A program made the position numbers and the translations under genes. Shown here piece after piece: positions 3,609 through 20,882 of a stretch of 24,400 bases of DNA. Origin of the DNA: a virus; IMG/VR virus record IMGVR_UViG_3300020001_000007, positions 1-24,400 of that record; one strand, written 5' to 3'. The notes under the pieces were generated by a model. The model saw only the letters and a program-made list of their open reading frames with translations. It was not told the DNA's origin and did not search any database. How positions within the stretch are numbered: the stretch's first letter is position 1; each line of letters begins with the position of its first letter.

Positions 3609-4316
3609 TTAAAGTGTATATTTAAACCTCAAGTTGAACGTGTGGGCAGTTGGCTTGAAAGAAAACCCTCCAGCTGTATCTATTTTAATATTCATGATGG
3701 CAGGATAATTGATAACTTCATATTCGATGCCAATTCCAAAATTCTTGTTAATGAAATAATCTATACCACCGCCAATCAGGATGCCTTTTTGTACCCTATG
3801 TATGCTTGCGATGTCCTTTGGATTTAAAAGATAATTTTGATTTCTGAAAGTCAATGCAAAGCGGCTTAATGCTATTCCTGATTTTAGGTAAAATACATTG
3901 TTGCAATGGACAAACCCGATTTTTGCGGCAATGCCCCCCTTGTGATTGTTTTTCATATACATAAAATAGTTAATGTAACCTGGAAGGCTATTCTCTTCTT
4001 TTTCAATGACAATGTTGGCGTATTGGTAAAAACCTTCTACTGCAATATAAAGATTTCTATCAAAAATCTTTTGGTAACCAGCAAAAATACCTGTTGCGAG
4101 ACCCTTTTCTCCAATACTTATTACCCTGTCAGATATCTGAAAGTTAAGGGTTCTATTCAATTGTCCTACAAGAGTGCTATACCCAAGGCCTAATCCGCCA
4201 TAAAATCCATCATTGATGGTAGAAACTTTATTAAGGCGCGGCTCGCAAGAGATACTCACGTTTGCGTTAGCTGCTATAAATAAAGTTAATATAAAAACAA
4301 ATAGTTTACTGATCAT
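3609..4316 (-). CDS. Outer-membrane beta-barrel protein
   Basis: A 235-residue protein with a Sec signal peptide (MISKLFVFILTLFIAANANV, cleavage probably near residues 17-20). The mature part has alternating hydrophobic/polar strands typical of small eight-stranded barrels: a first strand 'GFYGGLGLGYSTL', a 'YFINKNFGIGIEYEV' strand near the C-terminus and a last strand 'HTFNLRFKYTL'. This fits the OmpA/opacity-type surface-antigen superfamily common in intracellular alphaproteobacteria. It is the last gene of the leftward recombination operon, 40 bases after the 208-residue gene, with a GAGGG ribosome site. Phage-encoded barrels such as lambda Lom modify the host surface during lysogeny; that role here is inference. 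A second unrelated-looking barrel is encoded at 20214-20882. Confidence 0.75.
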   Translation of the reverse strand: MISKLFVFILTLFIAANANVSISCEPRLNKVSTINDGFYGGLGLGYSTLVGQLNRTLNFQISDRVISIGEKGLATGIFAGYQKIFDRNLYIAVEGFYQYANIVIEKEENSLPGYINYFMYMKNNHKGGIAAKIGFVHCNNVFYLKSGIALSRFALTFRNQNYLLNPKDIASIHRVQKGILIGGGIDYFINKNFGIGIEYEVINYPAIMNIKIDTAGGFSFKPTAHTFNLRFKYTL

Positions 4317-7039: not shown

Positions 7040-7437
7040 GCGCCTTTTTCCTTATTGTTTGATTGTACAAATCTAAATTTTTTGCCTAGTAGGGTATTAT
7101 TAACAATATTGTTTCTTTCCTTTTTGTAATAAACCCATTCTCCGTTTCGCAATTCCCTTATTTCAATCCTGTGGCCATTATTGATGATATTTGAAGCCGT
7201 ATAGATTTCAAACGGTTCCCATACTGTCTTATCATCGCTTTCTATCTTCATTTGAAGGTCGCCATCATCAAAGGTTTTCTTTCTTTCCACTTTTATGTAG
7301 GAGGCGTTCTTATCAATAGCTTTCTGAAGGGCTGTACGTGGGTCACGTGATAGGAACCTGTAAGTGTAATCTTTTACAAATGTTCCATTTTTTATTGATT
7401 CCCAACCTTTGGCAGATGAACTCAAAACATTAGTCAT
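7033..7437 (-). CDS. Hypothetical early-operon protein, 134 residues
   Basis: No family recognised. The protein is soluble and mixed alpha/beta: 'YRFLSRDPRTALQKAIDKNA' may be a helix, followed by strand-rich sequence ('HRIEIRELRNGEWVYYKKER') and a basic C-terminus. It overlaps the exonuclease start by 7 bases and begins within the stop of the upstream 260-residue gene (ATGACTAA), so the three are translationally coupled. An AAGGAAG ribosome site precedes the ATG. Position suggests an accessory of recombination or host takeover; this is guesswork. Confidence 0.6.
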   Translation of the reverse strand: MTNVLSSSAKGWESIKNGTFVKDYTYRFLSRDPRTALQKAIDKNASYIKVERKKTFDDGDLQMKIESDDKTVWEPFEIYTASNIINNGHRIEIRELRNGEWVYYKKERNNIVNNTLLGKKFRFVQSNNKEKGAC

Positions 7438-10618: not shown

Positions 10619-11011
10619 CTACGGCCTTCTATGAGCGTTTTTGATGGTAGGCCGATTTTCGCGAAATGTTTGAGCTTCTATGCTGAACCTTGCAACAAGA
10701 TTGGCTTCCAGGCGATTTATGCCGATTGGCTCACCTGTTTGTTCACAATAACCGTATGTCCCGTCTTCTATGCGCTGCAACGCTTGTTCTATGTTGCGGA
10801 GGGTTTTATGCTGTCGGTCTTGTTCTTTTATTTCGATATTGCGGGAAATTTGATTTGCTACTACATCAAAAAAATCTATATCTGGTTTAGTAGAAGGGTA
10901 ATTTTCTGTTTTCCGATTTTCCAGAATGTTTTGCTTCCACTTCAAGAGCCTATTCTTGAAATGTTCTAACTGGTGAGAAGTTATATAACTTTCAGAATCC
11001 TCATAAACCAT
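10619..11011 (-). CDS. dksA: DksA/TraR-family transcription regulator (single-Cys type)
   Basis: A 130-residue DksA homologue. The coiled coil runs from about 12 to 82, with a tip acidic pair D46-F-F-D49 matching the DxxD that reaches the RNA polymerase active site. The globular part is 'RIEDGTYGYCEQTGEPIGIN' followed by R100, L101 and E102. Only one of the four zinc cysteines is kept (C89); the others read T92, F109 and A113. This matches the alphaproteobacterial 'SIEAQ' type rather than E. coli DksA. The N-terminal coiled coil appears several residues short. DksA binds the polymerase secondary channel and, with ppGpp, reprograms stable-RNA and amino-acid promoters. A phage copy probably redirects host transcription. 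A promoter and a terminator hairpin precede it. Confidence 0.88.
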   Translation of the reverse strand: MVYEDSESYITSHQLEHFKNRLLKWKQNILENRKTENYPSTKPDIDFFDVVANQISRNIEIKEQDRQHKTLRNIEQALQRIEDGTYGYCEQTGEPIGINRLEANLVARFSIEAQTFRENRPTIKNAHRRP

Positions 11012-12243: not shown

Positions 12244-12623
12244 CAGATGGAAAGAAAGAAAAAGAATCCCTGAAAAATTCTGAGAACACTAAATTCTATC
12301 AACTTATAAAGCTCCTCAATGACTCAGAATCCCACTGGAAATTCTGGATAGATAAGAAGAATTTTGGAGATATAAACGGTCTTGTCCCTATCGAAAGATT
12401 CATAGAAAGGGAAAGAGGAAGTATATACTCTCCTTTTATTGATAAAATATCGGACAGATGCTTTAAATTTGTAGTAATAGATATTATAGAAGAAGATTCA
12501 CAAGAACTTCATACAAATGAAAATGATGTAAAAAGGAAAAAAATATATTCAGATAAAGGTATTATTTATTTTAAACATAACAATATTGATTTTTTGTATA
12601 AAGAGGTGAAAAAGATTTCGTGA
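12240..12623 (+). CDS. Hypothetical protein, 127 residues
   Basis: No family recognised. A soluble charged protein, Lys/Glu/Asp-rich: 'KFYQLIKLLNDSESHWKFWI', 'IERFIERERGSIYSPFIDKI', and a strand-rich C-terminus 'GIIYFKHNNIDFLYKEVKKI'. Its ATG overlaps the preceding stop (ATGA) and its TGA overlaps the GTG start of the next gene. This indicates translational coupling within the rusA unit. Confidence 0.6.
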   Translation: MTDGKKEKESLKNSENTKFYQLIKLLNDSESHWKFWIDKKNFGDINGLVPIERFIERERGSIYSPFIDKISDRCFKFVVIDIIEEDSQELHTNENDVKRKKIYSDKGIIYFKHNNIDFLYKEVKKIS

Positions 12624-13045
12624 GTAATGAGAGGCCGATTTTGCAAAATGGAAATAAAATTGGGAATGGGCGATCAAAGGGAACTCCCAATAAAAAAACG
12701 GAATTCTTCCATTTCATTAGCGACAATATGCAAAGCTTGCTTAAATTACAGATGAAATCTGCCCTCGGGGGAGACTTGGACTCACAAAGGTTTTTGATAA
12801 ATAAAGGAATACCTACTCCAAAGCCTGGTCGTTTTGTTAAAACCTATCTGCATGAAATAAAAACCATCGAAGATGTCGCGATTGCCCAGCGAGAAGTCGT
12901 GAACGCCCTTAGCAATGCAGAAATAACTATCGAGGAAGCAGAGAAGCTCTTTGAGATTATCGCTCAACAACAGAACACGATAACGACTCTTGAGATACTG
13001 CCTCGGCTACTAACTGTGGAAGAGGCTCTTAAACAAAAAGCTTAG
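12620..13045 (+). CDS. DUF5681-like phage protein, candidate small-terminase-type
   Basis: A 141-residue protein starting at a GTG that overlaps the previous TGA. Residues 9-26 have the basic 'NGNKIGNGRSKGTPNKKTEF' element seen at the start of DUF5681 proteins ('G.P.GR.KG..NK'). The region 'KTIEDVAIAQREVVNALSNA' followed by 'EITIEEAEKLFEIIAQQQNT' matches the family's '...A...v..a...GeiT..EA..l...i' segment. Such genes often sit near terminase or transposase genes, and their function is not established. Terminase large subunit begins 2.2 kb downstream on the same strand, and no other small-subunit candidate is visible. A DNA-binding role in packaging is therefore possible, though unproven. Confidence 0.6.
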   Translation: MSNERPILQNGNKIGNGRSKGTPNKKTEFFHFISDNMQSLLKLQMKSALGGDLDSQRFLINKGIPTPKPGRFVKTYLHEIKTIEDVAIAQREVVNALSNAEITIEEAEKLFEIIAQQQNTITTLEILPRLLTVEEALKQKA

Positions 13046-13086: not shown

Positions 13087-13166
13087 TAGCCCTGACGGGT
13101 GTTGAACCCATATCTCTCGATGTAGAACGATCGAGCATCCTAACTTTTCTCTTAGACGACAGGGTC
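13087..13166 (-). tRNA. Degenerate tRNA-Glu-like sequence
   Basis: Read on the minus strand this 80-base stretch folds as a tRNA. The acceptor is GACCCTG/CAGGGCT with an A-C mismatch at pair 2, T8-C9 are followed by a GTCTA D-stem, and the T-arm is ATGGG-TTCAACA-CCCGT abutting the acceptor. The D-arm (TCGTCTA...GTTAGGA) and the end GCTACC resemble alphaproteobacterial tRNA-Glu. It departs from a normal tRNA in a D-loop about 5 bases too long without the GG pair. The anticodon arm is CTCGAT/ATCGAG with an 8-base loop containing TTC but no U before it, and the encoded end is CCT, not CCA. It is probably a decayed tRNA, a non-translating tRNA mimic, or an integration-site relic. Confidence 0.6.
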
Positions 13167-13245: not shown

Positions 13246-13521
13246 TTACGTAATCTTGTCTAATAAATCTTTTTTTCCAACTTCAAGTGCAGTTAATAAA
13301 GTAGATATTTCTTCGACATTACCATGATATCCACATATAGTAAGTCCTAGTCTTTTTTTAGGTTGTTCATTTCCATCTATTGTTGCAATAAAAAAAGCCT
13401 TCAATTCTCCTATTTTATTAATTTTTTCAACATATTTATTAAAACTGGTAGAAGCTTTTTCAGATTTCGGTTTTTTATCTCTAGTTTCTTTTATTTGATT
13501 GATATCGATTACGTTGGTCAT
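13246..13521 (-). CDS. Hypothetical protein, 91 residues
   Basis: No family recognised. The N-terminus is charged ('IDINQIKETRDKKPKSEKAS') and followed by a helix 'FNKYVEKINKIGELKAF'. A strand-turn region 'FFIATIDGNEQPKKRLGLTI' and a C-terminal helix 'ISTLLTALEVGKKDLLDKIT' complete it. It starts 4 bases after the Hfq-like gene stop and is the last protein gene of the leftward cassette, before the hairpin and tRNA-like sequence. Confidence 0.55.
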   Translation of the reverse strand: MTNVIDINQIKETRDKKPKSEKASTSFNKYVEKINKIGELKAFFIATIDGNEQPKKRLGLTICGYHGNVEEISTLLTALEVGKKDLLDKIT

Positions 13522-13525
13522 GTTC

Positions 13526-13786
13526 TTATTTTTCTTCTGATATTATAATAGTTGCGATAGCAGGTTTAAAAATGAGGCACAAAGTTTCTTGATTCCTCTC
13601 TGTTTTCTTCAAGATAACTGAAGAATTGTCAAATTCACAGACAATTCCATGTAGTTTAATGCCACTTACGAGGTATATAGTCGCATTATGACCTGTCTTA
13701 AATATGTTTTTAATGAATACGTCTTCTATATTATTAATCACCTTAGAACTCACCACTTCCTCCGTTTTAAATAATTTTTTCCACAT
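13526..13786 (-). CDS. Hfq-like Sm-fold RNA-binding protein
   Basis: An 86-residue protein whose residues 20-82 align with Hfq. 'IEDVFIKNIF' matches the N-terminal helix (LQDVFLN in alphaproteobacteria). 'ATIYLVSGIKLHGIVCEFDN' matches Sm1 (...IYLVNGIKLQG.I..FD). 'LCLIFKPAIATII' matches Sm2 (QMVYKHAIST). The Sm1 Asp, the distal-face Tyr and the proximal-face Lys are kept, but the conserved His of YKHA is Pro (P75), and three or four extra residues sit between Sm1 and Sm2. Hfq is a hexameric RNA chaperone pairing small RNAs with mRNAs. The ATG was chosen because GGAAAGG precedes it; a longer frame starts at TTG inside the previous gene. A dominant-negative, phage-specific or host-mimicking role is possible. 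Confidence 0.8.
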   Translation of the reverse strand: MWKKLFKTEEVVSSKVINNIEDVFIKNIFKTGHNATIYLVSGIKLHGIVCEFDNSSVILKKTERNQETLCLIFKPAIATIIISEEK

Positions 13787-13803
13787 TTTTTTTGCCTTTC
13801 CTT

Positions 13804-14073
13804 TTAAATAAAACAACGACTTCTTTCATAATAATCTTCTATATCATTAACCACATTTGTGAGGAAGGATAGTAATGATTTTTGACTGCACGATCTCTTA
13901 TCATAATTAATTGACCCGCCTGCATCAATAATGTACGCACTATAATAATCTGGTTTTTCTCTTAAATGAGCTATTGCCTTACCGTTCTTAGTAATATCGT
14001 ATTGAGACTGAGAATTTTCAAAAGTATTATGGGTTTCATATACTTCATATCCTTTTATTTTAAGTGGCTTCAT
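13804..14073 (-). CDS. Hypothetical protein, 89 residues
   Basis: The start was placed at the second ATG (MKPLKIKGYEVYE), which has GAGGA 8 bases upstream inside the end of the preceding gene; the first ATG lies before that site. The first half is strand-rich ('YEVYETHNTFENSQSQYDIT', 'AIAHLREKPDYYSAYIIDAG'), the second a helix 'SLLSFLTNVVNDIEDYYERS'. It follows the antitoxin-like gene immediately, where a toxin would usually be. However, it lacks recognisable RelE/YafQ signatures, so I do not call it a toxin. Confidence 0.55.
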   Translation of the reverse strand: MKPLKIKGYEVYETHNTFENSQSQYDITKNGKAIAHLREKPDYYSAYIIDAGGSINYDKRSCSQKSLLSFLTNVVNDIEDYYERSRCFI

Positions 14074-14074
14074 T

Positions 14075-14452
14075 TTATTTTTCCTCTTCATTGTTGTTAA
14101 GTCGCACTTTAACTTTGAATGGTAACCCTTGGTGTCGGATTATTTCATTGTAAAAAATATTGAATAAGGAGGTAGGCGTTAATCCTAATGATTTTATGAT
14201 CTTATCGGCCTCTTCCTTGATCTTTTTGTCAATGCGGCACATATATCCAACCTTTTTTTCCTTATTATGTTGAGGAATATCAAAGGGAATTTGCCTATTT
14301 TCTATTATCATTTCATAAAATAGTTTAATCACAGAAGTAGGAGTGTATCCTAACTTTCGTATAATTTTTTCTGCTTCTTTTTTAATTTCCTTATCTATAG
14401 TAGTAGATAAATATGAAACCCAAGTAGATGAAACCCATTTTTTCTTAATCAA
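14075..14452 (-). CDS. Tandem RelB/DinJ-type ribbon-helix-helix protein (orphan antitoxin-like)
   Basis: A 125-residue protein made of two copies of the RelB/DinJ DNA-binding fold. Residues 14-59 read 'YLSTTIDKEIKKEAEKIIRK', then 'LGYTPTSVIKLFYEMIIENR' and QIPFDI. Residues 70-115 read 'YMCRIDKKIKEEADKIIKSL', then 'GLTPTSLFNIFYNEIIRHQG' and LPFKV. Normal DinJ/RelB proteins carry one copy and dimerise, with the N-terminal strand entering the DNA groove; here one chain would form a complete dimer-like unit. The short C-terminus lacks a toxin-wrapping tail. The start is a TTG with GGAG 10 bases upstream, since no earlier ATG exists. No RelE/YafQ-type toxin is adjacent, so it may be a repressor or an antidote to a host toxin. 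Confidence 0.78.
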   Translation of the reverse strand: MIKKKWVSSTWVSYLSTTIDKEIKKEAEKIIRKLGYTPTSVIKLFYEMIIENRQIPFDIPQHNKEKKVGYMCRIDKKIKEEADKIIKSLGLTPTSLFNIFYNEIIRHQGLPFKVKVRLNNNEEEK

Positions 14453-14509: not shown

Positions 14510-15094
14510 TCAACTAAGTTTGTCATGTGAGTCCTCCTTAATTATAAAACCGTAACCGTAACTGGAACCGTAACCGTAACCGGAACCGTCACCGGAACCG
14601 GAACCGGAACCGGAACCGGAACCGGAACCGGAACCGGAACCGGAACCGTAACCGTAACCGGAACCGTCACCGGAACCGGAACCGGAACCGTCACCGGAAC
14701 CGGAACCGGAACCGTCACCGGAACCGGAACCGTCACCGGAACCGGAACCGTCACCGTCACCGTAACCGGAACCGGAACCGGAACCGGAATAAGCTTTCCA
14801 TGGCTTTACATCCTTAATTGCTTTCTGAGCAATATCAGAAACTTCTAATATTTCTTTAGCATCCAAGATAATAATTACCGGAACTTCTGATGGGAATTTA
14901 CAATTATCTGGTTTTTTGGGTCCTGTTACAGAAAGTTCTGAAGCTGATGCGGCACCATCCCAATACCATAATCTACGGACATTCAATAGTTTTACTACTG
15001 TTCCTTCAATATTCTCTAATGTTCCAGAAAAAAGCCCAGAATTCATGCCACGCACTATCACATATTTACCTTTTAATTCAGATCCTATCATCAT
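14510..15094 (-). CDS. DUF6948-like protein with C-terminal Gly-Ser/Asp/Tyr repeats
   Basis: A 194-residue protein. Residues 1-102 match a phage family I know as DUF6948: 'GKYVIVRGMNSGLFSGTLEN', 'VRRLWYWDGAASASELSVTG', and PDNCKFPSEVPVIIILDAKE followed by PWKAY. Residues 103-182 are pure dipeptide repeats (GS, GD, GY), ending with a short unique tail IIKEDSHDKLS. The function is unknown. The N-domain looks like a small strand-rich fold, and the tail should be disordered and mildly acidic. AAGGAAGAAAG precedes the ATG, and a good leftward promoter lies upstream, making this the first gene of the cassette with the antitoxin-like and Hfq-like genes. Confidence 0.7.
   Translation of the reverse strand: MMIGSELKGKYVIVRGMNSGLFSGTLENIEGTVVKLLNVRRLWYWDGAASASELSVTGPKKPDNCKFPSEVPVIIILDAKEILEVSDIAQKAIKDVKPWKAYSGSGSGSGYGDGDGSGSGDGSGSGDGSGSGSGDGSGSGSGDGSGYGYGSGSGSGSGSGSGSGSGSGDGSGYGYGSSYGYGFIIKEDSHDKLS
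14549..14789. repeat. Hexanucleotide tandem repeat array
   Basis: About 40 units of the form CCGGAA, CCGTAA or CCGTCA run through the end of the DUF6948-like gene. On the coding strand they read as Gly plus Ser, Tyr or Asp codons. Higher-order blocks such as 'GGAACCGTCACC' recur, so unequal exchange or slippage probably shaped the array. It is far more GC-rich than its surroundings. Length variation in steps of six would keep the frame. Confidence 0.9.
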
Positions 15095-15271: not shown

Positions 15272-16876
15272 TTGCGCACTTCTTCATTATTGAGACTGCT
15301 TGCTAATTTCGAATCCAGATTATCGCAAATTTCTCCTACTATTGACTTCCGATATCAGGATGAAGCCTCTGCCTGTGAGGAGGATTTCCATACCTTTTTA
15401 AGAGCAGCATGGCATGTTATAGAAGGAGATCGACCATTTATAGATGGATGGCACATCCAGGCCGAATGTGAGCACTATGAAGCCTTGTTCTACGGAAATA
15501 TATTAAAGCTCATTATTAACGTTCCTCCTGGTACCTGCAAATCAACGATTGGCTCAGTGGCCTTTCCTGCCTGGGTATGGACTAAAACCCCTTCCTCTCA
15601 ATTCCTTTATGCCTCATACGGTATGACCTTGGCTGTTCGGGACAGCGTAGCTTGGGGAAACAAATGCCAACTCACAAGGGATATTAATACTAAGACACGG
15701 TTTGCGAACGCTCAGGCTGGATACAGGATTGCAACCAGTATCGGTGGAACAACAACAGGGGAGCACGTTGACTACGAGTTCTTTGATGATCCTAACAATA
15801 CGGCGAATGTTGAATCAGAAGTTATACGAACGGACACTAACATTAAATTTGACCGTGTTTTCTCAGGTCGTTTCAATGATCCTAAAACGGGCCGTTTATG
15901 TGTTGTTCAGCAACGGACACACTTTCAGGATTTGTCAGGCCACATATTATCTAAAAATATTCCAGGTCTAATTCATTTATGTTTACCTCAGGAATATGAG
16001 GTAAGCAGACAGTGTACGACCATTCCCCTTAAGAGCACGAAAGGTGAGAAATGGGAAGATCCTAGAAAAGAAGAAGGGCAATTATTATGGCCTGAATTTT
16101 TTGATAAGAAATCCGTAGAACTAGGAAAAATAGACTTAGGTGGTGAATACGCTATTGCGGGACAGTATCAACAACGTCCTTCCCCAGGCCAAGGCGGTAT
16201 CTTTAAAAAGAAGGATTTTCAGTGGTGGAAACAGAAATACCCTCCCCGTTGTCATTTTGTACTGCAATCCTGGGATACGGCATTCAGCAAATCCGCAACA
16301 GCCTCCTGGAGTGCATGCACAACATGGGGCATTTTCAAAAATGACCATCAAGTCGATAACATTATCCTTTTGAGCCTATGGAGGGGAAGACTGGAAAATC
16401 CTGACGTAAGGAGAATGATCCTAAGACTTGCACATAACTATTACGACACACATACTAACTATCCTGCACCGGAAACACAGGCTTTCAAACCGGATATGAT
16501 CCTAATTGAAGGAAAAGCAAATGGGACCCCCCTTCTGCAAGACCTGCGCAGGGCTGGACTTATTATCAATAGTTTTGACCCTTTAAAACATGGAGGGGGG
16601 GATAAAACATCCAGGGGGCGTGCAATATCACACCTTGTAGAAGCTGGCCTAATCTGGATACCTTCGGAGCCTCCCTTATATACAAAATTAAGGCCATTTG
16701 CAGATCTTTTCGTTGAATCATGTGCATCTTTCCCCAATGATGATGACTCAAAGGACATAGTGGACACCATGAGCCAAGCTCTGATTAAATTCAGGTTGCA
16801 AGGGCTAATAGGACACCCGGACGATGCTTATATCCAGGAGGAATTCAATCCAAACCGAGGGAAAAGAATATACTAA
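15272..16876 (+). CDS. Phage terminase large subunit
   Basis: A 534-residue packaging motor. The ATPase domain has a Walker A variant 'VPPGTCKST' (84-92) and Walker B 'YEFFDDP' (168-174), preceded by a Gly/Thr-rich 'ATSIGGTTTGEHVD'. 'QQRTHFQDLSGHIL' is the usual motif after the ATPase core. The RNase-H-like nuclease has D335 in 'SWDTAF', E413 in 'ILIEGKANGTPLLQDL' and D498 in 'KDIVDTMSQAL', so all three acidic residues are present. The enzyme cuts the concatemer and pumps DNA through the portal. The frame begins with TTG at 15272 and no ATG is available before the conserved region; no strong ribosome site is visible, so the exact start is uncertain. The portal gene lies 690 bases further on, beyond an opposite-strand gene. 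Confidence 0.95.
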   Translation: MRTSSLLRLLANFESRLSQISPTIDFRYQDEASACEEDFHTFLRAAWHVIEGDRPFIDGWHIQAECEHYEALFYGNILKLIINVPPGTCKSTIGSVAFPAWVWTKTPSSQFLYASYGMTLAVRDSVAWGNKCQLTRDINTKTRFANAQAGYRIATSIGGTTTGEHVDYEFFDDPNNTANVESEVIRTDTNIKFDRVFSGRFNDPKTGRLCVVQQRTHFQDLSGHILSKNIPGLIHLCLPQEYEVSRQCTTIPLKSTKGEKWEDPRKEEGQLLWPEFFDKKSVELGKIDLGGEYAIAGQYQQRPSPGQGGIFKKKDFQWWKQKYPPRCHFVLQSWDTAFSKSATASWSACTTWGIFKNDHQVDNIILLSLWRGRLENPDVRRMILRLAHNYYDTHTNYPAPETQAFKPDMILIEGKANGTPLLQDLRRAGLIINSFDPLKHGGGDKTSRGRAISHLVEAGLIWIPSEPPLYTKLRPFADLFVESCASFPNDDDSKDIVDTMSQALIKFRLQGLIGHPDDAYIQEEFNPNRGKRIY

Positions 16877-17562: not shown

Positions 17563-19863
17563 ATGGTTCAAATGGATAATCTATCTAATAATTCTACACT
17601 CTATCAATCCCCTTCAATAGCCGACATAGAAATTAATATCCAGGAAACAGAACAGAAACAACAGGAGTTTGTAACTCCTTCCCTGGAAGGGCATAATGAA
17701 AACCTCGCAGAAATATTACCCCAAAGCACATTAAACCGTTTATCTGCAAGGTTAATAGAATTAATTGAGGAAGATATTGAATCAAGAAAGCAATGGGAAG
17801 AAGTTCTATCGGAAGGCTTAAAACTCTTAGGTATAAAGCCTGAAGACAGGAATTACCCATTTGACAACGCATCAGGAGTTTATGGGCCATCTATGATGGA
17901 AGGGTTCGTAAATTTTACCTCAGTTGCCATTGCTGAGCTTTTGCCCTTAGAAGGGCCCATAAAGCAATATATAGTAGGGGAAGTGACAGATGAACTGCAA
18001 GACAGGGCAGATAGGATTGAATCTTTTTTTAACAATTTCCTTATAAATGATTGCAAGGAGTATTATTCAGACACAAAAAAAATGTTGTCTTGGGTATATG
18101 CTTCTGGTTCAATTATTAGAAAATCTTATTTTGATGAATATTTAGAACGACCAACAGTAAAATTCATCCTTCCTCAAGACTTTATCGTTAATTATGGAAC
18201 AAATGATTTAGAAACATGTTCACGAATGACAGAGGTAATCAATATTACAAAAGAAGAAGTTTTAAGAAACCAAAGAACAGGGATCTTTATCGATACCAAT
18301 TTATTTCCGGATGATTCTGAAGATGGTTCAATAATTCAAAAAACCCGTGACAACCTTGAAGGTATTACAAAACCAGCGAACCACCACAACAATGGAAATT
18401 ATACTTTTTATGAATCCCATGTCTCCTTTAGCGATTTTGAAATTGCAGAAAGCCTGGACGACTTTTCAGAATCTATTTACCGACCTTATATTGTAAAAAC
18501 ACACAAAGACTCTAAAAAAATTGTTTCCATTTATAGAAACTGGAAAGAAGAAGATGAAAAATGCATAAGAACAAATTATTACACAAAGTTTGGGTTTATG
18601 ACAAGCTTTGGGTTTTATGATTGGGGCGCTGTACATTTGATAGGAGGGCTATCACGCGCAAGCACAGCTACACTAAGGCAAATTATAGATGGTCAGACAT
18701 TAGCGAATTTCCCAGGTGGTTTCCGCGTAAAAGGAATGCCACTCCAGAATAACAATATACCTATTGGCCCATGTGAGTTTCCGGAAATTGAAACCGGTGG
18801 ATTGCCCATACAACAGGCAATCATGACAATGCCTTACAAAGAACCTTCTCCCCAGGTAAATATTGTAAGGAATGAACTGGACATGTCAGCATCCCGCATT
18901 ATGGGATCTGCTAATATGCAAATACCGGAATTCCAAACAAATGCCCCGGTTGGGACAACTTTAGCTCTCCTTGATGTATTGCATTTGGTACAATCCACAG
19001 TATTAAGGGGCTTAAGGGACTCCATGTCCCGGGAATTTGAAATACTTTACCGTTTATTTTCTGAAACAATCTCTGAGGAACCCTACGAATTTAGTCACGA
19101 CGGAGGAAAATCTTATATTAGCCGCCAGGATTTTATAGATGATATATCGATAATACCTGTTGCAGACCCACATGTTATTACAAAAATACAAAGAATTATA
19201 AGGTCACAATATCTACAGGATCTTTGTTTGAAATTCCCCAGCCTTTATGATGCGTATGAGATAAACAAGATTGCGCTTAAGGAAATTAAACTTACAGATT
19301 CCCAAATTGGTAAGGTTTTAATTAATCAGGAGAATGTTATTCCTTTAGACCCTGTAACTGAAAATCAAAACCTTATTATTGGTAAGGCGGCAAAAGCCAG
19401 TATAGAACAAGACCATCCATCTCATATAATCGTTCATGAGACTATATCTCAAGATCCTACTATTCCGCCAAATGTTTTAGCTACAACCGCGGCCCATATT
19501 GCACAACATAAGGCATTGCAATTCCAAATTCAGATGCAGCAATTAACTGGCATACAATTGCCTCCTGACCCATCTAAGTTACCTCCTGAAGCTCAGAACC
19601 AAATTGCTATGTTGGCCGCTCAAGCCTTAAGTCAACAACAGAAGGCACAGCAAAAGACGCAACCTCCCTTGCTTGATCCTGCCGCTGTCATGCTTGAAAA
19701 AGTTAAGGTTGAAGAGAAAAGCGTTGAACAAAGGGACGTTGCTTCTGAGCGTGAAGCCCAGATAAAAGCATTTGCAGCCCAACTTGACTATGATGCTAAA
19801 ATGAAAGCCTTGGAACTTAAAGAGGAAGAGTTGAGAATAAAGGCGCAAACAGGGAAAATATAA
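17563..19863 (+). CDS. Phage portal protein
   Basis: A 766-residue protein with the layout of large P22-type portals. The N-terminal helices 'LIELIEEDIESRKQWEEVLS' precede 'NASGVYGPSMMEGFVNFTSV', which leads into AIAELLP and GPIKQYIVGEV. A wing/stem region ('MLSWVYASGSIIRKSYFDEY', 'FILPQDFIVNYGTNDLE') follows, then 'LSRASTATLRQIIDGQTLAN' and 'NAPVGTTLALLDVL'. The last 170 residues are Gln-rich and helical ('QHKALQFQIQMQQLTGIQL', then 'AQALSQQQKAQQKTQ'), which suits a C-terminal barrel or coiled-coil extension. Portals form a dodecameric ring at one capsid vertex for DNA entry and exit and dock the terminase. MVQMDN allows two ATG starts; the first is used here. Coat genes probably lie beyond the window. 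Confidence 0.88.
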   Translation: MVQMDNLSNNSTLYQSPSIADIEINIQETEQKQQEFVTPSLEGHNENLAEILPQSTLNRLSARLIELIEEDIESRKQWEEVLSEGLKLLGIKPEDRNYPFDNASGVYGPSMMEGFVNFTSVAIAELLPLEGPIKQYIVGEVTDELQDRADRIESFFNNFLINDCKEYYSDTKKMLSWVYASGSIIRKSYFDEYLERPTVKFILPQDFIVNYGTNDLETCSRMTEVINITKEEVLRNQRTGIFIDTNLFPDDSEDGSIIQKTRDNLEGITKPANHHNNGNYTFYESHVSFSDFEIAESLDDFSESIYRPYIVKTHKDSKKIVSIYRNWKEEDEKCIRTNYYTKFGFMTSFGFYDWGAVHLIGGLSRASTATLRQIIDGQTLANFPGGFRVKGMPLQNNNIPIGPCEFPEIETGGLPIQQAIMTMPYKEPSPQVNIVRNELDMSASRIMGSANMQIPEFQTNAPVGTTLALLDVLHLVQSTVLRGLRDSMSREFEILYRLFSETISEEPYEFSHDGGKSYISRQDFIDDISIIPVADPHVITKIQRIIRSQYLQDLCLKFPSLYDAYEINKIALKEIKLTDSQIGKVLINQENVIPLDPVTENQNLIIGKAAKASIEQDHPSHIIVHETISQDPTIPPNVLATTAAHIAQHKALQFQIQMQQLTGIQLPPDPSKLPPEAQNQIAMLAAQALSQQQKAQQKTQPPLLDPAAVMLEKVKVEEKSVEQRDVASEREAQIKAFAAQLDYDAKMKALELKEEELRIKAQTGKI

Positions 19864-20213: not shown

Positions 20214-20882
20214 ATGTTAAAGAATTTATTTTTTGTTTCACTCAAGGCATTTGCTGTTTTTGGATTGTTAGCGAACTTCTCAAACGCAAATGCAAACAAT
20301 CCTTGGGAGCAGCGTTTCTACGGAGGACTTTCCTTGGGAGGAGCTTCCTTAAACACACAAAATAATTTATCCGTTAGAAGTTCACAAATTTCTAAAAAAA
20401 CAAATGATACCAATGTTCATGGGGAGTTAATTGGTGGATATGAGATTTCCAATCAGAATATCTTTCTAGCTCTGGAAACTGATATAGGCTTATCAAGCGC
20501 AGCAACAGAAGAATTGTTAACCCTGGCTGGCATTCAACATCCTTTTACAATTGAATCAAAAAATGGATTTGGTTTTGCTGCCCATATAGGAAAATCTATT
20601 GATGAAAATCACAGGGTTTACCTTAAGTTAGGGATTGAAATCAAGAAATTCCAGACAGAACTGAAAGGTCTAAACCGTTTTACAGATCATAAGAAATCAT
20701 TTAATGGGATAGGTTTCGTTCCTGGGATAGGAATAGAAAAGAAACTGACTGACACGGTAAATTTCAGGACAGAGTATAAAGTTTCCCTTTATTCTGCTAA
20801 AAAGCTTGTTTCCGAGCATACTACTCATACTATCAAGACAGTAACACATCATCTAACGGCAGGGTTTTATTTCAAGACATAA
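20214..20882 (+). CDS. Second outer-membrane beta-barrel protein
   Basis: A 222-residue protein with a clear Sec signal peptide (about 1-27, hydrophobic 'AFAVFGLLANFSNANA' ending in an AxA-type site). The mature protein begins NNPWEQRFYGGLSLGGASL. It shows strand repeats ('ELIGGYEISNQNIFLALETD', 'GFGFAAHIGKSIDENHRVYL', 'IGFVPGIGIEKKLTDTVNFR') and ends 'HHLTAGFYFKT', a C-terminal strand with alternating aromatics. This is the same general class as the barrel at 3609-4316, but the two share little direct sequence. It follows a terminator on the same strand. Late or lysogenic surface alteration, adhesion or superinfection blocking are possible roles. Confidence 0.75.
   Translation: MLKNLFFVSLKAFAVFGLLANFSNANANNPWEQRFYGGLSLGGASLNTQNNLSVRSSQISKKTNDTNVHGELIGGYEISNQNIFLALETDIGLSSAATEELLTLAGIQHPFTIESKNGFGFAAHIGKSIDENHRVYLKLGIEIKKFQTELKGLNRFTDHKKSFNGIGFVPGIGIEKKLTDTVNFRTEYKVSLYSAKKLVSEHTTHTIKTVTHHLTAGFYFKT

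Follow-up and report, generated by a model that had tools for sequence, protein, structure and literature searches.

On the minus strand of the window, by which we mean the whole stretch of DNA analysed here (a single IMG/VR record, 24,400 bases long), an 86-codon ORF with an intact frame runs from an ATG at 13786 to 13526. Its translation is MWKKLFKTEEVVSSKVINNIEDVFIKNIFKTGHNATIYLVSGIKLHGIVCEFDNSSVILKKTERNQETLCLIFKPAIATIIISEEK, and it encodes a protein of the Hfq family. Hfq is a bacterial ring protein that pairs small RNAs with messenger RNAs and is a hub of riboregulation. The ORF and the genes around it are as follows.

10619–11011, minus strand: DksA/TraR-family protein (TIGR02420, 93.2 bits, cut-off 115.5; Pfam DksA_N and zf-dskA_traR)
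12620–13045, plus strand: conserved 141-aa lineage gene in the position of the small terminase, with homologues in the related genomes G001, G056, G089, G091 and G092; no family match, and none in PHROGs
13246–13521, minus strand: 91-aa ORF, starting 4 nt past the hfq stop; last gene of the operon, no Pfam match
13526–13786, minus strand: Hfq-family ORF (P0001), 86 aa, Sm domain at residues 20–82
13795–13802, minus strand: Shine-Dalgarno-like AGGAAAGG, recognized from the sequence, 8 nt 5' of the hfq ATG
13804–14091, minus strand: 95-aa ORF, stop 17 nt 5' of the hfq ATG
14075–14452, minus strand: tandem RelB/DinJ-like antitoxin-type protein (TIGR02384, 105.8 bits), overlapping the 95-aa ORF
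14510–15094, minus strand: DUF6948 protein with a long Gly-Ser-rich tail (PF22253, 74.1 bits)
15272–16876, plus strand: terminase large subunit, TerL (phrog_38, E 5e-70; 45–63% identity to lineage relatives)
17563–19863, plus strand: portal protein (phrog_1216, E 1e-7; 35–62% identity to lineage relatives)

An Hfq-like protein at exactly 13526–13786, with an Sm1 region resembling that of bacterial Hfq, had been proposed in a sequence-only reading of the window. This identity is borne out by Pfam, PDB and fold comparisons, and the minus strand is added here. In the profile search against Hfq/Sm families that the same reading had suggested, residues 21–84 match Pfam PF17209 Hfq above its cut-off (E 6.9e-14, 51.7 bits, cut-off 27), and the nearest PDB entry by sequence is Caulobacter Hfq 6gwk (E 3.4e-9). 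Both Sm1 elements, IYLVSGIKLHG and FDN, are present. The NCBIfam Hfq models also match, although the scores are under their equivalog cut-offs (TIGR02383, 48.8 vs 61.7 bits). No Hfq-type match was found in PHROGs version 4, and Pfam PF23874 Phage_Hfq gave no match at E up to 1. The protein belongs to the Hfq/Sm superfamily. It is named here an Hfq-family protein, not Hfq, because it lacks features that define the equivalog family of RNA chaperone Hfq (TIGR02383).

In Hfq, the proximal residues are Q8, F42, K56 and H57, the lateral residues are N13, R16, R17, S38 and F39, and the distal Y25 is crucial for A-rich RNA (PMC5379935). It is normally the proximal pocket that is conserved, and the annealing activity is set by the rim arginines (PMC6561178). 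According to the alignments, two changes of the window protein are located at or just before Sm2.

13559–13570, minus strand: FKPA replacing the Sm2 motif YKHA, residues 73–76; the equivalent of E. coli His57 is Pro75
13577–13588, minus strand: four-residue insert ETLC, residues 67–70, in loop L4 between β3 and β4 (strands 56–63 and 66–73 of the model hairpin)

The FKPA change had been noticed before and is present as described, and the few residues thought to be inserted before Sm2 are exactly these four. The changes extend to other sites. In E. coli numbering, the proximal pocket carries Q8E, Q41N, F42S and H57P with D9 and K56 unchanged, and the rim carries N13K, R16F, R17K, R19G and S38E with F39 unchanged. 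On the distal face, Y25, G29, I30, K31 and L32 are retained and N28S and Q33H are altered. The nine cellular references, without exception, show Q(F/Y)KH in the proximal pocket and NR(K/R)F in the rim. The equivalog-type U pocket (Gln8, Phe/Tyr42, Lys56 and His57, with YKHA) is therefore broken in the window protein, which reads E, S, K and P, and the basic rim patch (Arg16, Arg/Lys17) is replaced by F and K. In contrast, the distal set (Tyr/Phe25, Gly29, Ile/Val30, Lys31, Leu32) is complete, reading Y, G, I, K and L. Identity to E. coli is found at 6 of 8 distal sites vs 3 of 12 other sites, a weak contrast drawn from the window protein alone (Fisher p 0.065).

The N-terminal EDVF, previously likened to alphaproteobacterial Hfq, is present, but the simple likeness does not hold: since all cellular references read Q-D-x-F, its E replaces the uracil-contacting Gln8. 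An effect on the proximal face, suggested before from the Sm2 region, is likely, to judge from the residues, and it exceeds what was proposed, as Gln8, Phe42, His57 and the rim Arg16 are all changed. Thus the identification was right, and the caution on Sm2 understated the extent of change. The H57P substitution and the L4 insert could weaken the hexamer. Compared with bacterial Hfq (PF17209; Caulobacter crescentus 6gwk, E. coli), the window protein shares the Sm fold, Sm1, Lys56 and the distal-face residues at 34–39% identity, but it has lost Gln8, Phe42, His57 and Arg16, and has the L4 insert, an 18-residue N-terminal extension and a short C-terminus.

An AlphaFold model was obtained for a single chain with seven aligned sequences as input. 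It consists of a helix (residues 20–31) and five strands (34–39, 44–52, 56–63, 66–73 and 77–82), with pLDDT of about 94–97 over residues 21–80; the N-terminal 19 residues are uncertain. Using Foldseek against the PDB, the top match is Caulobacter Hfq 6gwk (E 2.4e-6), with TM-scores by target up to 0.92, and the model overlays E. coli Hfq 3rer with an rmsd of 0.9–1.0. The Sm fold, on which the sequence-only reading depended, is thus predicted with high confidence, and the β4/β5 hydrophobic pattern is retained together with the fold. The matches include 6xyj, a crystal structure of E. coli Hfq carrying a long L4 insertion, and 3m4g, an H57A Pseudomonas Hfq; therefore, the insert site and the His57 position both have structural precedents.

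The gene lies in an antisense four-gene operon running from 14452 to 13246 on the minus strand (the RelB/DinJ-like gene, the 95-aa ORF, hfq and the 91-aa ORF), in which the genes overlap or are separated by gaps of at most 17 nt. The operon adjoins the DUF6948 gene and is located upstream of TerL, between conserved phage genes. Its lineage-conserved flanks are on the plus strand: a RusA-like gene and three small genes upstream, and TerL and then the portal gene downstream. TerL (53–63% identity) and portal (43–62%) are common to the window and G001, G056, G088, G089, G091 and G092; for G026 and G030, the values against the window are 45–46% for TerL and 35% for the portal. The interval from the 141-aa gene to TerL holds cargo that differs from genome to genome in the lineage. 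In G092 the same interval contains a RelB-like gene, its product 47% identical to the RelB/DinJ-like protein of the window, and in G088 a DUF6948 gene, 50% identical to that of the window, is located just before TerL.

As the window is known from a single metagenomic record of 24.4 kb, a host gene joined to phage DNA by misassembly has to be considered, and a contig misjoin had been named before as fatal to the phage assignment. It is highly improbable: syntenic lineage genes flank hfq on both sides, homologues of the operon neighbours occupy this interval in G092 and G088, and the miaA or hflX neighbours typical of chromosomal hfq are absent here. Because of the synteny on both sides and the cargo neighbours shared with relatives, the window hfq is a phage gene, carried as cargo upstream of TerL, and the genome context supports the earlier placement on a tailed phage.

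Several other features of these phages were observed. The RelB/DinJ-type domain (14075–14452, minus strand) is duplicated in tandem and has no obvious toxin partner adjacent. The tail of the DUF6948 protein (14510–15094, minus strand) is a long (GS/GD/GY) repeat encoded by a GGAACC-type hexamer array. A tRNA-like sequence at 13087–13166 (minus strand), in the same cargo interval, scores 25.6 bits in Rfam, just under the cut-off of 29; its anticodon arm is apparently odd and ARAGORN makes no call. The relatives G026 and G056 carry tRNA-Asn. With the DksA/TraR-family protein and hfq, two host-type global regulators are present on one phage. Outer-membrane β-barrel type proteins are encoded at 3609–4316 (minus strand) and 20214–20882 (plus strand), the latter matching Pfam OMP_b-brl and having homologues in G091 and G092. 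Read from sequence, GroEL is present in relatives (L003:16000-17640; L093:2073-3740), and an apparent small heat-shock protein adjoins hfq at G026:3594-3986. A host search for the lineage found no host genome, the sole genome match being an Actinomycetota MAG (L083) with 37% portal identity.

Three phages of the same TerL/portal lineage, G026 (L092), G027 (L093) and G030 (L096), also carry hfq as cargo, at other positions. In G027 the gene runs antisense, with TerL on one side and a conserved minus-strand gene on the other, and the G026 and G030 genes are beside a tyrosine integrase and adjoin a phage structural gene. Lineage hfq thus occurs beside the integrase or between TerL and portal, whereas the window hfq is upstream of TerL. 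Finding the gene at three different positions suggests that it was acquired repeatedly or has moved. The G026 and G027 proteins have all canonical sites, and that of G030 has an intact proximal pocket, a changed rim and, like the window protein, an L4 insert. All three keep Q8, aromatic 42, K56 and H57, whereas the window protein is without Q8, aromatic 42 and H57.

The canonical relatives bear on the reading that the window protein is still an sRNA chaperone, which adds dosage, serves phage or host sRNAs, or supplies a host without Hfq. As G026 and G027 encode canonical proteins, the ancestral cargo function may be that of canonical Hfq, and some intracellular alphaproteobacteria (Rickettsia) are without hfq (PMC5105140). 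We nevertheless consider this supplementing role unlikely for the window protein, in which Gln8, Phe42, His57 and Arg16 are all lost and the score is under the NCBIfam equivalog cut-off.

About 140 other records, collected by portal or TerL similarity, gave one more Hfq match above the cut-off, in G093, where the stretch is possibly host DNA. This gene (G093:35477-35740, minus strand, locus L278) encodes a highly divergent Hfq-like protein (31 bits) that has FKAH and a long L4, and a WGR-like gene lies next to it. The genes around it (LysR, MFS, toxin-antitoxin, methylase) resemble a host flank, so we left it out of the phage cargo; it probably belongs to host DNA next to a lineage prophage. 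A 12.7-bit hfq 'remnant' in G092 contains stops and is unconvincing. As most of the records are fragments, the absence of hfq from most relatives is weak evidence.

Trees were built from 60–80 usable columns, and the protein is too short for them to decide its origin; they neither establish nor reject a single clade of the four lineage Hfqs (p-AU 0.069). When viral and genome contigs were scanned with the single protein, no relative was found. The branch of the window protein is very long, at 4.2–7.0 changes per site. This length, and the fact that most relatives are without hfq, would be expected of a captured host hfq that is now functionless and drifting towards loss. Such decay is improbable, given the intact frame, the good ribosome-binding site, the tight operon spacing and the high-confidence fold, and given that the distal site and the core are spared by the substitutions.

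Motif scans of 2.9 million viral contigs gave 57 matches (6 confirmed) and, with a strict YKHA-type motif, 22 matches (10 confirmed). Among the ten is a T7-like phage (L298) with hfq directly 3' of a head-assembly gene; this canonical-YKHA gene (L298:5974-6246) is within the structural module, an unusual site for a regulator. Also among the ten are a 77.6-kb phage that encodes Erf and an exonuclease (L302) and three Firmicute phage regions of the temperate type (L094, L297 and L300). A 328 kb jumbo phage (L097, IMG/VR 3300020477_000990) has an Hfq at 7144–7350, with E-N-K-N at the proximal sites, I-D at the rim and the distal face kept; its losses are as in the window protein. Among isolates, a small protein of the Pseudomonas phage Nickievirus hairong matches Pfam Hfq with 31.4 bits, and fold matches in BFVD include proteins of Pseudomonas phage nickie and Mycobacterium phage Tonenili. 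These proteins and PF23874 Phage_Hfq have an Sm/Hfq-like fold on tailed phages, as the window protein does, but there is no PF23874 sequence match and the fold matches are only 15% identical. Archaeal plasmids and the Pyrobaculum spherical virus are further known carriers of Hfq-like proteins; these place an Hfq-like domain on mobile elements, as in the window, but they are archaeal and the plasmid ones are fused to a zinc finger (PMC3543421).

Apart from hairong, what look like phage hfq genes in the INPHARED isolate collection are on chromosomal contigs filed as phages. MT835489 (MT835489.1; miaB-mutS-mutL-miaA-hfq), Acinetobacter 'phage MD-2021a' (mutL-miaA-hfq) and the Salmonella contigs are pieces of bacterial chromosomes. 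CAKLQH020000029.1 and the candidate CAKLQF020000030.1, also filed as phages, look like bacterial contigs with an apparently chromosomal hfq (miaA/mutL). The match in Vibrio phage CZ01 is a chance one inside a long reverse-strand ORF. A bacterial chromosome contig (L095) and what looks like a host-side gammaproteobacterial hfq (L301) were set aside, and the L304 match is not an hfq ORF.

The sequence-only reading had held hfq on tailed phages to be rare. The few confirmed motif matches agree with this, but several unrelated phage types carry the gene and Pfam has a 'Phage_Hfq' family (PF23874). As T7-like, 77 kb, jumbo and Firmicute temperate phages carry hfq in addition, phage hfq is rare but recurrent, and not unique. 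In the papers searched, no description of tailed phages with their own bacterial-type Hfq was found.

The fully basic 16–17 pair is missing in seven of the 11 phage Hfqs compared: the window (FK), G030 (RD), L298 (QT), L302 (SD), L094 (LR), L097 (ID) and Pseudomonas phage hairong (IV). The pair is kept in the other four, G026, G027, L297 and L300. Two of the 11, those of the window and the jumbo phage L097, have additionally lost Gln8, aromatic 42 and His57. Cellular Hfq without the rim patch exists, as in S. aureus with K16/A17 (Table 1, PMC5348863). We treat this rim-loss trend as a lead and not as a result, because few proteins were compared, the search itself partly determined which ones, and cellular Hfqs are sometimes patchless.

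As the A-rich face is kept and most of the U-binding and pairing residues are lost, the window protein may act on RNA unlike host Hfq. Our preferred reading, put forward tentatively, is that it is a fast-evolving phage-borne Sm protein that binds A-rich mRNA at the distal face as a binder or repressor, not an sRNA matchmaker. The residue pattern fits this, with the distal face kept and the U pocket and rim gone. The protein would assemble into an Sm ring, and the distal face of the ring would bind single-stranded A-rich segments (A-A-N/A-R-N) in mRNAs of the phage or the host. The bound mRNAs would then change in translation or stability during infection or lysogeny, and the capture of sRNA U-tails and sRNA–mRNA annealing would be poorer than by host Hfq. 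By analogy, the nearest case studied by experiment is Hfq3 of Bacillus anthracis, also a mobile-element Hfq, in which the rim arginine patch is missing (IEEQ for RRER) and which acts in cells via distal-face residues; unlike the window protein, it is from a Firmicute, plasmid-borne, and keeps the proximal Gln (PMC5348863).

The main rival is that the phage protein enters host Hfq rings and, lacking proximal and rim residues, disables sRNA regulation in infection. The retained fold and β4/β5 hydrophobic pattern would allow this, and a monomeric Bacillus Hfq1 is dominant-negative on E. coli Hfq (PMC5348863). Mixed hexamers of wild-type and tagged Hfq can also be made (PMC8266614). The window protein has 34–39% identity to host-type Hfqs of the alphaproteobacteria that are the phage's likely hosts, but at about this identity co-assembly is uncertain, and the canonical Hfqs of the related phages G026 and G027 would not poison rings. 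We therefore regard such poisoning as rather unlikely, though worth keeping in view. A wider scheme, which we hold to be speculative and doubtful, is that tailed phages repeatedly capture hfq, strip the rim arginines and then the proximal pocket, and keep the A-rich-RNA face, resulting in 'distal-only' rings that would serve as mRNA binders or poison subunits.

A compact phage lineage in which canonical Hfqs occur alongside proximal-pocket-less ones would offer a direct test of which Hfq surfaces a phage needs. The same lineage could show whether phages rewire or disable the sRNA networks of their hosts.
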